From positions 2,604,001-2,668,000 of the forward strand of contig NZ_QGEH01000001.1 in NCBI RefSeq assembly GCF_003258515.1: a stretch of 64,000 nt of DNA. Direction: 5' to 3'. The first letter of the stretch is position 1. Each line of letters begins with the position of its first letter. A program made the translations under genes and the position numbers. Under the pieces are notes generated by a model. It worked only from the letters and a program-made list of their open reading frames with translations. It ran no database searches and had not been told where the DNA came from. Below, piece by piece: positions 36,357 through 42,432 of this stretch. The DNA is from Marinobacter bohaiensis. Lineage in GTDB: Bacteria > Pseudomonadota > Gammaproteobacteria > Pseudomonadales > Oleiphilaceae.

Positions 36357-37130
36357 ATGCTGATGGTCATTTCCCCGGCCAAAAACCTGGACTACGAGAG
36401 CCCCCTGGCGACGCAGAAATACTCCCAGCCGGCCTTCCTGGACGACGCCTGCGAACTGATCGACCAGCTCAAGCCGCTGGAGCCGCACCAGGTGAGCAAC
36501 CTGATGGGCATCAGTGAGAAGCTCGGCGAGCTCAACGCCCAGCGCTACCAGGACTGGCACACACCGTTCACCCCGGACAACGCCCGCCCGGCCGTGCTGG
36601 CTTTCAACGGTGACGTCTACACCGGCCTGGATGCGCCGTCCTTCAGCGACGCCGACTTCGAGTTCGCCCAGGATCACCTACGCATCCTGTCCGGCCTCTA
36701 CGGCATACTGCGCCCGCTGGACCTGATGCAGCCCTACCGCCTGGAGATGGGCACCAGGTTCGAGAATACCCGCGGCAAGGACCTGTACGCGTTCTGGGGC
36801 AACAAGCTGACCATGGCCCTGAACGACGAACTGGCGGACGAGGGTCAGGTGCTGATCAACCTGGCCTCCAACGAGTACTTCAAGAGCGTCAAGAAGAAGG
36901 AGCTGGACGCGCGGGTCATCACGCCCCAGTTCAAGGACTGGAAGAACGGCCAGTACAAGATGATCAGCTTTTACGCCAAGAAGGCCCGCGGTCTGATGTG
37001 CGCCTACGCCATCAAGAACCGCATCAACTCGGCGGAAGACCTGAAAAAGTTCGATGTGGCGGGCTATTACTTCAGTGAGGAACAATCCAGCGGCGACAAC
37101 TGGGTGTTCCTGCGTGACGAACCGGCCTGA
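36357..37130 (+). CDS. yaaA: Peroxide stress protein YaaA (DUF328/UPF0246)
   Basis: 257-residue cytoplasmic protein of the YaaA family, which limits Fenton damage under hydrogen peroxide and binds DNA in E. coli. Family blocks seen: [16 protein letters not shown] at the start, [28 protein letters not shown] and [14 protein letters not shown] is about 7 nt before the ATG. It has its own AT-rich promoter region with a palindrome, and a small membrane protein gene follows after 9 nt. Confidence 0.93.
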
Positions 37131-38941: not shown

Positions 38942-41164
38942 TCAGGCGCCCTGCGTTTTCTTCAGACTCTCCTGTTCACCCTGAGCGTGACGCGCGGCGC
39001 GGGCCGCATGCAGTTTCTTGTAGCTCTCGATCAGGCGCAGGTGCTTGTCCAGGCCCTCCAGCTGCATGTTGGTCGGGGTCAGGCCGTGGAAACGCACGCT
39101 GCCGTCGACGGTGCCGACCACGGCGTCCATGGTCTGCTCGCCGAACATGCGGCGGAAGTTGTAGAGGTAGTCGTCCAGTTCCAGCTCGTCGTCGAGCACC
39201 ACTTCCAGTACGGCGCACACGGCGCGGTAGAACAGCCCACGCTCGACGGTGTTGTCGTTGAACTGCAGAAACGCCTCGACGAACTCCAGCGCCTCTTCGT
39301 GCCACTGCAGCGCCAGACAGATCAGCGCCTTAAGCTCGAGAATGGTCAGTTGGCCCCATTCGGTGTTCTCGTCGAATTCCACACCGATCAGGGTGATGAT
39401 CGTCATGTAGTCGTCAAGCTGGCTGGCTTCCAGGCGCTCCACCAGGTCCGCCAGCTGTTCGTCGCTGAGGCGGTGCAGGTTTAGGATATCCTCGCGGTAG
39501 TCCAGCGCCATGTTGGTGTTATCCATGATGAGGTCCTCGACCGGATACACCTCGGAATAGCCCGGCACCAGGATGCGGCAGGCCGGCGCGCCCAGTTCCT
39601 CATAGACCGCAACGTAAACCTCCCTGCCCAGCTCGGCGAGGATGCCAAACAGGCGCTCGGCCTCCTCGTCATTGGTACCGGAGAAATCCCACTCGACAAA
39701 CTCGTAGTCGTGCTTCGCGCTGAAGAAACGCCAGGAGACCACGCCGGTGGAGTCGATGAAGTGCTCCACGAAGTTGTTGGGCTCGGACACTGCCTGGCTG
39801 TTGAACGTCGGCGGCGGCACATCGTTCAGCCCCTCGAAGCTGCGGCCCTGCAGCAATTCGGTCAGGCTGCGTTCCAGCGCCACCTCGAGGCTCGGGTGCG
39901 CGCCGAAGGAGGCAAACACGCCGCCAGTACGCGGGTTCATCAGGGTGACGCACATCACCGGGAACTGGCCACCCAGGGACGCGTCCTTCACCAGCACCGG
40001 GAAGCCCTGCGCTTCCAGCGCTTCCAGGCCTTCGACGATGTCCGGGTACTTGGCCAGCACGGCCTGCGGCACGTCCGGCAGGACAATCTCATCCTCGATG
40101 ATCTGCTTCTTCACCGCCCGCTCGAAAATCTCGGACAGGCACTGCACCTGCGCCTCGTTACGGGTGTTGCCGGCGCTCATGCCGTTGCTCAGGAACAGGT
40201 TCTCGATCAGGTTGGACGGGAAATACACCGTCTCGCCGTCGGACTGGCGCACGAACGGCAGCGAGCAGACACCCCGGTCACTGCGGCCGGAGTTCGTGTC
40301 GATCAGGTTGGACCCACGCAGGTCCCCCTCCGGGTCGTAGATGGCGCGGCAGTGCTCGTCCAGGATGCTCTCGGGCAGCTCGTCGTTCGGGCCGGGCTGG
40401 AACCACCGCTCGTTCGGGTAATGCACGAAATCGCTGTGGGCGATCTCCTGGCCGAAGAACTGGTCGTTGTAGAAGAAGTTGCAGTTCAACCGCTCGATGA
40501 ATTCACCCAGCGCGGAGCACAGGGCACTTTCCTTGGTGGCCCCCTTGCCGTTGGTGAAGCACGCCGGCGACGCCGCGTCGCGGATGTGCAGCGACCACAC
40601 GTGCGGCACGATGTTGCGCCAGGAGGCAATCTCGATCTTCATGCCCAGGTCTTCGAGGATGCCCGTCATGTTGGCGATGGTTTCTTCCAGCGGCAGGTCC
40701 TTGCCCTCGATAAAGGTGCGGTCGGCGCTGTCGGTGTCCACCATCAGCAGGGCCTGGGCGTCCTCGTCCAGATTGTCGACCGTCTCGATCTGGAACTCCG
40801 GCCCGGTCTGCACCACCTTTTTCACGGTACAGCGGTCAATAGCGCGCAGGATGCCCTGGCGGTCCTTGTCCGACAGGTCCTCCGGAAGCTCCACCTGGAT
40901 GCGGAAGATCTGGTTGTAGCGGTTCTCCGGGTCGACCACGTTGTTCTGCGACAGCCGGATGTTGTGGGTCGGGATATCCCGCGCCTTGCAGTAGACCCGC
41001 ACGAAATACGCCGCGCACAGGGCCGACGACGCCAGGAAATAGTCGAACGGGCTGGGAGCGGACCCGTCGCCCTTGTAACGCAGGGGCTGGTCCGTGACGA
41101 CGGTGAAGTCGTCGAACTTGGCTTCCAGTCGAAGGTTTTCGAGAAAGTTGACTTTGATTTCCAT
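38942..41164 (-). CDS. ycaO: OsmC-YcaO fusion protein
   Basis: 740 residues with two domains. Residues 1-135 form an OsmC-like domain with the two conserved cysteines (SSALCAAYFV and DRCTVKK), a fold known for thiol-dependent peroxide reduction. From about 165 to the end the sequence follows E. coli YcaO block by block (HIRD, CFTNGKGATK, HYPNE, SNGMSAGNTRNEAQVQ, SFGAHPSLEVALERSLTELLQGR), an ATP-dependent protein linked there to RimO-dependent methylthiolation of ribosomal protein S12. The C-terminus lacks a PxPxP end, so azoline peptide synthesis is unlikely. The start giving MEIKVNFLEN is the natural OsmC beginning; the frame from 41299 adds an unrelated tail. No precursor peptide gene was seen near it. 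Confidence 0.9.
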   Translation of the reverse strand: MEIKVNFLENLRLEAKFDDFTVVTDQPLRYKGDGSAPSPFDYFLASSALCAAYFVRVYCKARDIPTHNIRLSQNNVVDPENRYNQIFRIQVELPEDLSDKDRQGILRAIDRCTVKKVVQTGPEFQIETVDNLDEDAQALLMVDTDSADRTFIEGKDLPLEETIANMTGILEDLGMKIEIASWRNIVPHVWSLHIRDAASPACFTNGKGATKESALCSALGEFIERLNCNFFYNDQFFGQEIAHSDFVHYPNERWFQPGPNDELPESILDEHCRAIYDPEGDLRGSNLIDTNSGRSDRGVCSLPFVRQSDGETVYFPSNLIENLFLSNGMSAGNTRNEAQVQCLSEIFERAVKKQIIEDEIVLPDVPQAVLAKYPDIVEGLEALEAQGFPVLVKDASLGGQFPVMCVTLMNPRTGGVFASFGAHPSLEVALERSLTELLQGRSFEGLNDVPPPTFNSQAVSEPNNFVEHFIDSTGVVSWRFFSAKHDYEFVEWDFSGTNDEEAERLFGILAELGREVYVAVYEELGAPACRILVPGYSEVYPVEDLIMDNTNMALDYREDILNLHRLSDEQLADLVERLEASQLDDYMTIITLIGVEFDENTEWGQLTILELKALICLALQWHEEALEFVEAFLQFNDNTVERGLFYRAVCAVLEVVLDDELELDDYLYNFRRMFGEQTMDAVVGTVDGSVRFHGLTPTNMQLEGLDKHLRLIESYKKLHAARAARHAQGEQESLKKTQGA

Positions 41165-41307: not shown

Positions 41308-41337
41308 AAAAAGCGCCCCGCCGGCGGGCGGAGCGCT
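41308..41337 (-). terminator. Terminator of the Sco/PCuAC cluster
   Basis: On the minus strand an 11-bp stem with one G-U pair (41327-41337 with 41312-41322), 4-nt loop and five T residues. Confidence 0.85.
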
Positions 41338-41368: not shown

Positions 41369-41953
41369 TTATCCCCGGCTGGCGTCGATCAGGTGTTCCA
41401 GATCGGCCTTCACGGCCTCGACCGGATCGCTGTCGCGGGTCAGGAACTGGGCGTTGCCCCGGGCATCGAACGCGATGACGGCCGCGGCGTGGGAGACGTC
41501 GTAATTGCCGTCCGCGTCCGGCTCGCCGTAGCTGTAGGAAACGCGGAAACGATTGGTCACGTCGTCCAGCTGCTCTTTATCGCCGGTCAGACCGATGAAC
41601 TGCGGGCCGAAGGCGTTGGTGTAGGTGGTCAGGGTTTGCGGCGTGTCCCGCTTCGGGTCCACCGACACGAACAGCACCCGGAACGCCTCCCGATCAGACG
41701 CATCCAGCTGCCGGGTGATCTGCATCAGCCGCGCCAGTGTGGTCGGGCAGACGTCCGGGCAATGGGTGTAGCCAAAGAAGACCAGGGCCGGCTTGCCGGC
41801 GTAGTCCTGCTCGGTCACCGTCCGGCCATTCTCGTCGACCAGCTCAAAGTCGAGCGACGGCAGCTTGTCGGAAATATCCGCCGTGCGCCAGTCATCGGCT
41901 TTGCAGCCAACGAGCATCACGGCGATCAGCAGCAGGAAAAGGTGTCTCAACAT
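41369..41953 (-). CDS. SCO1/SenC family copper chaperone, lipoprotein
   Basis: 194-residue thioredoxin-fold protein that delivers copper to the CuA site of cytochrome oxidase. N-terminal lipobox LVGC; copper-binding CxxxC motif in HCPDVCP (C65, C69) and the third ligand H155 in DVSHAA. VSVDPKRDTPQTL is a family block. It lies 38 nt after a PCuAC gene on the same strand, a pair often seen together because PCuAC and Sco cooperate in CuA maturation. Confidence 0.93.
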   Translation of the reverse strand: MLRHLFLLLIAVMLVGCKADDWRTADISDKLPSLDFELVDENGRTVTEQDYAGKPALVFFGYTHCPDVCPTTLARLMQITRQLDASDREAFRVLFVSVDPKRDTPQTLTTYTNAFGPQFIGLTGDKEQLDDVTNRFRVSYSYGEPDADGNYDVSHAAAVIAFDARGNAQFLTRDSDPVEAVKADLEHLIDASRG

Positions 41954-41991
41954 CGTGTATCCAGATTATCAGCTTGTTCGGGTATCGGGCG

Positions 41992-42432
41992 TCACATATC
42001 CGCCGGCGATACCACGTCGAAGGTCACCGGCAGAGGGTCGTGCCCTTCGAATTCCAGTGTGACCTCCACGTCGTCGCCCAGTTCCAGCGGCACCGAGCGC
42101 TGCATCAGCATCAGGTGGTAGCCGGACGGCGCCAACTCGAAGCTCTCACCGGCCTTGATTTCGATCGCGGGCACGGCGTGCATGTGCATCATGCCGTCTT
42201 TTTCCATGCTCTGGTGGATCTCCACCTTGCCGTAGGCATCGCTGTGGGCCCCCACCAGCTTGATGGTCTCGTCACTGCCGTTGTGCAGGTGGAAGTAACC
42301 CGCCCCAGGGATATCACCGGGGAGCAGGCGCACGCGCGCATCCGACACCTCAACGTCGCCGGCGAAGGCCATTCCGGTGGACAGCACGAACGCCGTGGCG
42401 CCCATCAACAAAGCGTTGGCAAGGTTACGCAT
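41992..42432 (-). CDS. Periplasmic copper chaperone PCu(A)C
   Basis: 146-residue periplasmic protein with a cleavable signal peptide (cut after AFA). The Cu(I)-binding motif H(M)x10Mx21HxM can be followed in VEIHQSMEKDGMMHM and GYHLMLMQ. It passes copper to the oxidase subunit together with the Sco protein encoded next. The first gene of the cluster may be the small unknown gene upstream. Confidence 0.9.
   Translation of the reverse strand: MRNLANALLMGATAFVLSTGMAFAGDVEVSDARVRLLPGDIPGAGYFHLHNGSDETIKLVGAHSDAYGKVEIHQSMEKDGMMHMHAVPAIEIKAGESFELAPSGYHLMLMQRSVPLELGDDVEVTLEFEGHDPLPVTFDVVSPADM

Follow-up and report, generated by a model that had tools for sequence, protein, structure and literature searches.

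An OsmC-YcaO fusion in Marinobacter bohaiensis as a candidate uL16 thioamidase carrying a proposed thiol module

In Escherichia coli, YcaO installs a thioamide at Met82 of ribosomal protein uL16, and the Klebsiella pneumoniae and Pseudomonas aeruginosa enzymes thioamidate uL16 when co-expressed with their own uL16 (Rice et al., 2026, PMC13063428). The same report describes an acidic YcaO surface that binds uL16, identifies low pI as a predictor of the uL16-thioamidating group, and states as open the route by which sulfur reaches these enzymes: E. coli has no TfuA, and Na2S serves its YcaO as the sulfur source in vitro. This function has overtaken the view that YcaO assists RimO in the methylthiolation of uS12, a link that rests on a ycaO deletion strain in which uS12 modification still reached 84%, against 99% with the gene; in vitro, RimO modifies a peptide without any helper (PMC13063428). 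The second half of the story presented here concerns the OsmC/Ohr thiol peroxidases, from which the YhfA branch is excepted (PMC4069020). In Ohr, Glu51 and Arg19 contribute to reactivity, and the protein is reduced by lipoylated proteins (PMC5962072); OsmC-like selenoproteins, with the motif UXXT, also exist (PMC1088965).

The window, a stretch of 64,000 nucleotides from Marinobacter bohaiensis, encodes both halves in one polypeptide. A single uninterrupted reading frame at 38942-41164 on the minus strand (ATG at 41164; the stop codon ends at 38942) specifies a 740-residue OsmC-YcaO protein, the sole YcaO match in the host genome. Why would an enzyme that probably modifies a ribosomal protein carry a thiol domain in cis?

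A fused relative of the uL16-modifying YcaO proteins

Three Pfam domains score above their cut-offs in the window protein: OsmC at residues 32-127 (40784-41071; 40.3 bits, cut-off 27.5), YcaO at 205-536 (39557-40552; 226.3 bits), which alignment with PDB 4Q84 also identifies as the ATP/Mg domain, and YcaO_C at 553-723 (38996-39508; 245.5 bits). The OsmC domain as a whole can be taken as residues 1-130 (40775-41164) and is followed by a variable linker, residues 131-152 (40709-40774). The fusion is therefore real, as a reading of the letters alone had claimed, and it is also not new: the protein matches positions 1-722 of the 723 in NCBIfam TIGR03549 (OsmC domain/YcaO domain-containing protein; 1497.3 bits, curated cut-off 900), from which it does not differ in architecture. 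The name of that family states two domains and no function.

The YcaO portion resembles the E. coli enzyme (4Q84-4Q86) in its YcaO and YcaO_C halves, its acidic pI and its fold: residues 149-725 align with 4Q84 at E 4e-185, E. coli copies are about 49% identical over residues 149-718, and the protein groups with E. coli YcaO both by its match to NF040716 (892.6 bits, cut-off 700) and by a shared branch (support 92/89). Unlike the window protein, E. coli YcaO has no OsmC domain, and it sits on a branch separate from the long-stemmed fused clade. AlphaFold2 models match 4Q84-4Q86 and OsmC/Ohr structures, with mean pLDDT of 68 and 73; the OsmC part is weak in the full model, and neither model is good enough to position the OsmC cysteines next to the YcaO site.

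Is uL16 the substrate? The YcaO part (residues 149-740) has a pI of 4.46, against 4.40 in E. coli, and thus fits the low-pI predictor; the corresponding ranges are 4.32-4.77 in 31 fused and 4.40-5.39 in 26 unfused proteins. The uL16 of the host contains PLEVRMGKGKGSVE, with the loop VRMGKGKG, and RMG is found in 27/27 uL16 proteins examined, all of them from YcaO hosts, which makes the loop a weak test of the substrate. Judged by these likenesses, the host's copy probably acts on uL16. Moreover, a fused enzyme may already be among those assayed. P. aeruginosa YcaO (Q9I2H8), which thioamidates its own uL16 (PMC13063428), is probably itself a fusion and an ortholog of the window protein, an assignment made from other Pseudomonas loci and a peptide mass in place of the Q9I2H8 sequence. 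All 18 Pseudomonas-labelled loci among the matches listed (the best 80 of 589, a set biased by its fused query) are fused, and the published 1118-Da GluC fragment from P. aeruginosa corresponds to VRMGKGKGGVE (computed 1117.61), a loop present in three fused genomes of family f141 and shared by genome G122. The word OsmC does not occur in the main text of PMC13063428.

The name of NF040716, S12 methylthiotransferase accessory factor YcaO, points elsewhere, and the sequence-only reading followed the same path in tying the gene to RimO and S12; in this respect the fusion was misread. The host genome (99.99% complete) shows no rimO: its best match to TIGR01125 reaches 250.4 bits, below the cut-off of 356.95, and is MiaB (571.5 bits). 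With miaB alone and no rimO match, a role as RimO accessory was rejected for this host. Across a class sample of 370 genomes, 207 of which have a rimO match at E <= 1e-95, rimO does not track the fusion: 8/12 fused and 23/29 unfused YcaO genomes have such a match (Fisher p 0.44, on small numbers). This is the outcome that the sequence-only reading had itself named as its refutation. Four of the 12 fused genomes in this sample show no match, and of the eight positive ones the poorest E-value is that of G187, probably the sole match to fall under the cut-off. What speaks for a RimO connection, besides the database name, is that rimO is commoner in YcaO carriers (31/41 versus 176/329 others; p 0.007, relatedness not controlled). 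This is offset by the 10/41 YcaO genomes with no rimO match, including single-contig G241 and G317 (same order as the host), by the sufficiency of RimO in vitro, and by uL16 being the demonstrated substrate (PMC13063428). An accessory function in uS12 methylthiolation is thus highly improbable, and with 10/41 such genomes having no rimO match the name is misleading.

One fusion and its exchange with the unfused enzyme

Fusions of the TIGR03549 type are common in Pseudomonadota, in the class and phylum samples and in named genomes alike. The best 80 of 589 relatives in named genomes, ranked by closeness to the fused query, are all full-length fusions; the genera among these listed matches are Marinobacter, Microbulbifer, Halomonas and kin, Alcanivorax, Idiomarina and kin, Pseudoalteromonas, Pseudomonas, Marinomonas, Shewanella, Acinetobacter, Colwellia, Nitrosomonas, Dechloromonas and a few others, and a plasmid collection adds Azoarcus, Caballeronia and Cupriavidus. 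In the class sample, 41 of the 370 genomes have a uL16-type YcaO, 12 fused and 29 unfused, and an OsmC profile finds the same 12. The phylum sample of 299 genomes contributes 56, divided by frame length into 38 fused and 18 unfused, and the union of the two samples comes to 91 genomes, of which 45 have the fused form and 46 the unfused one.

Each of these 91 genomes has one match, so that the two forms are never found together (0/91 at E <= 1e-50). Under naive independence, about 0.9 and 2.3 genomes in the two samples would be expected to hold both; taken alone, the absence of coexistence is evidence of modest strength. Replacement within genera is stronger evidence. Three genera are mixed: g65 (fused in G064, unfused in G340), g292 (fused in G526 and G587, unfused in G494) and g301 (fused in G534 and G625, unfused in G585); family f138 also holds both forms. 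Secondary loss of OsmC within the fused clade was considered for G494 and G585 and rejected: their copies, 41% and 46% identical to the window protein, are of the unfused type, and gene replacement is thus the explanation. The lack of coexistence in 91 genomes, together with replacement within three genera, argues that fused and unfused YcaO probably serve the same function.

In a tree of 57 YcaO halves, one branch (support 100/100) separates the 31 fused proteins from all others. Because the fused side of this branch spans many genera, the fusion is not a matter of chance. A larger branch of 34 rows takes in E. coli, Aeromonas and G222 as well; its support is the 92/89 given above, below the starred level. 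With the root outside, the tree is most simply read as one fusion event and subsequent swapping with an unfused equivalent. The stem of the fused clade is long (1.28 changes per column), which could mean a shifted role; several unfused rows are also long. Finally, within one genus of family f141, that of G416, 15/25 genomes carry the fusion and 10/25 have no uL16-type YcaO, and the modification thus seems readily lost there.

The OsmC domain and a possible route of sulfur

The OsmC domain is strongly conserved. Among 85 fused proteins, selected for their closeness, mean pairwise identity is 0.870 in OsmC, 0.804 in YcaO, 0.719 in YcaO_C and 0.574 in the linker; the conservation of OsmC at least equals that of the catalytic domain, which argues that it is in use and under strong constraint. 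Three cysteines are invariant in 85/85 of these proteins. Cys50 (codon 41015-41017) and Cys112 (40829-40831, in the motif CTVKK) occupy the positions of the peroxidatic and resolving cysteines when aligned with the Ohr of the host, and they are the two redox cysteines that had been noticed from the letters; the third, Cys59 (40988-40990), had gone unmentioned and is absent from the host's own Ohr, its own YhfA and one hydrolase/OsmC protein. Selenocysteine at position 50 was also considered and rejected: the match to the nearest NCBI model, NF041052, reaches 43.9 bits against a cut-off of 95, and the motif differs from UXXT.

What is the domain used for? The same fold and the same two cysteines invite comparison with the Ohr/OsmC thiol peroxidases and, with them, the earlier proposal that an Ohr-like peroxidase protects the YcaO step from peroxide. 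Beyond the extra Cys59, the window domain differs in having CTVKK where Ohr has CPYSNA and, above all, Phe40 in place of XfOhr Glu51 in 85/85 proteins, within a gapless segment from a conserved Pro to Cys50; ordinary peroxidase activity, and thus a guard against peroxide, is therefore unlikely. The counterpart of Arg19 is less clear: R12 is Arg in 84/85 and Lys in 1/85 fused proteins, and Lys in three Pseudoalteromonas relatives, and its match to XfOhr Arg19 is uncertain because of gaps before Cys50. With a separate Ohr in the host as well, a peroxide guard is improbable. The other half of that proposal, thiol or sulfur handling, is the better one.

We favor, tentatively and as one possibility among several, a uL16 thioamidase equipped with a cis-acting thiol module that supplies or handles sulfur. 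Using ATP, the YcaO half would replace the backbone amide oxygen of Met with sulfur in the uL16 loop EVRMGKGKG. The OsmC cysteines (C50, C112 and C59) would most likely take up sulfur, held as a persulfide on C50 or C112 and perhaps relayed through C59, or else act as reductant of a sulfur donor; either way, HS- would be set free next to the YcaO active site in cells where free sulfide is scarce and TfuA is missing. That the OsmC domain handles the sulfur at all is a tentative proposition in itself, and to see in it the fused partner that transfers sulfur during ribosomal thioamidation, functionally comparable to TfuA/ThiS, is somewhat more doubtful. The fusion would resemble a TfuA-YcaO thioamidation pair if OsmC hands over sulfur; it differs from such pairs in that the window protein has no TfuA domain and its host no TfuA. 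Indeed, TfuA is absent from 79/80 uL16-type YcaO hosts searched, the host included; the single exception is a gene in another genome (G605:C1:4475796-4476152, locus L257).

Several observations count in favor of sulfur handling: (i) the cysteines are invariant; (ii) the Glu of Ohr is missing; (iii) the domain sits in cis on an enzyme in need of a sulfur-donating partner; and (iv) the YcaO half carries a cysteine specific to the fused clade, Cys342 (codon 40139-40141), next to the conserved Q341, found in 30/31 fused and 0/25 unfused proteins, the wider enrichment of Cys among fused-specific residues (3/5 versus 54/275) being weak. Others count against it. Na2S supports the reaction of E. coli YcaO in vitro (PMC13063428), and 46/91 uL16-type hosts have no fusion, so that the thioamidation chemistry does not need OsmC. 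A literature search showed, in titles and abstract openings, no sulfur transfer by an OsmC protein, and the searches made returned no paper linking the OsmC-YcaO fusion to the sulfur step of ribosomal thioamidation.

The close stand-alone relatives of the domain cut both ways. In favor of a thiol module, C50, C59 and C112 are kept in four such relatives that were aligned (about 37-43% identity). Against it, within the class sample, close stand-alone copies (>140 bits) occur in 4/370 genomes, all without any YcaO match; the OsmC subfamily must therefore have some other job too. Conversely, none of the 29 unfused hosts in this sample has a close stand-alone copy at the same threshold, the weaker OsmC matches in such hosts being 55 bits in G340 and 44 bits in G129. 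This dismisses the idea of a split partner, in which unfused hosts would encode the same OsmC as a separate gene (the Rosetta stone argument), and means that the OsmC domain is not generally required.

If the cysteines do not carry sulfur, they might sense the state of the cell: oxidation of the C50/C112 pair could act as an on or off switch for uL16 thioamidation during thiol stress. The conserved pair in Ohr positions suits such a redox switch, as does the neighbor of one stand-alone relative, given that Ohr is reduced by lipoylated proteins (PMC5962072); since unfused YcaO works without OsmC, however, a switch of this kind is quite unlikely. The neighbor in question is a dihydrolipoyl-dehydrogenase-like gene (NF004939, 516.8 bits), 8 bp after which a three-cysteine OsmC gene starts in an apparent operon (L247:5440-7108). 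This arrangement hints that the thiol chemistry may be linked to lipoamide, as it is in Ohr; no dihydrolipoyl-dehydrogenase-like gene appears among the typed neighbors of the other three stand-alone class copies.

The main rival to sulfur handling, though still unlikely, dispenses with thiol chemistry altogether. OsmC could be an acidic docking domain whose surface binds the basic uL16 or fixes the dimer, its cysteines being inherited or structural. OsmC and the linker together have a low pI (4.38-5.13 across 31 fused proteins), an acidity shared with the uL16-binding surface of YcaO (PMC13063428), and the lack of close stand-alone copies in the 29 unfused hosts is in keeping with docking. But three cysteines that are invariant in 85/85 fused proteins and persist in the stand-alone relatives at 37-43% identity are more than docking needs.

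The sulfur-handling reading makes the fusion a concrete, testable candidate for the sulfur-supply step that PMC13063428 states as open. About half of the sampled uL16-type YcaO genomes (45/91) carry the thiol domain in cis, so the question can be approached by point mutants of an enzyme that E. coli can express; if the reading is true, the three-cysteine OsmC is a natural clue to the uL16 sulfur route in part of Pseudomonadota.

A stand-alone three-cysteine OsmC protein, 41-44% identical, is also encoded on three large Pseudoalteromonas plasmids, between cytochrome b562 and a gene for the type B form of L36, with type B L31 coming next in two of them (L148-L150). Type B ribosomal proteins are the zinc-free forms.

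Genomic neighborhood

Membership in the YcaO superfamily raises one more possibility, an enzyme of RiPP (thiopeptide or azoline) biosynthesis, and genome-mining software has indeed placed such a fusion gene in a predicted thiopeptide cluster of Massilia, where it is listed as a core gene (PMC7988111). Among 81 fusion loci, surveyed for ATG-started frames of at least 70 codons in flanks of up to about 4 kb, with other-frame and antisense frames inside the fusion gene set aside, no neighbor family occurs in more than 10; the commonest, in 10/81, is a LysR-type regulator by sequence. No conserved precursor or partner family emerged within this range, and a RiPP cluster was rejected; the earlier remark that no precursor or partner lies nearby holds to the same extent. 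Since the protein also has the YcaO_C domain and acidic pI of the uL16 enzymes, and its host no TfuA, a RiPP enzyme is the least probable of the explanations weighed here, and the Massilia assignment is a warning for annotation.

On the strand of the fusion and upstream of it, the window holds genes for SCO1/SenC (41369-41953) and a PCuAC copper chaperone (the pair spanning 41369-42432). These copper genes were considered as operon partners and dropped because they are set apart from the fusion by 204 bp that include a terminator-like hairpin (41314-41330, minus strand, predicted by consensus scan alone) and because no neighbor is widely conserved. On the other side, 1.8 kb from the fusion, lies a gene of the YaaA peroxide-stress family (36357-37130; H2O2_YaaD, 323.5 bits). 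A SCO gene is also found about 3 kb from the fusion on an Azoarcus plasmid.
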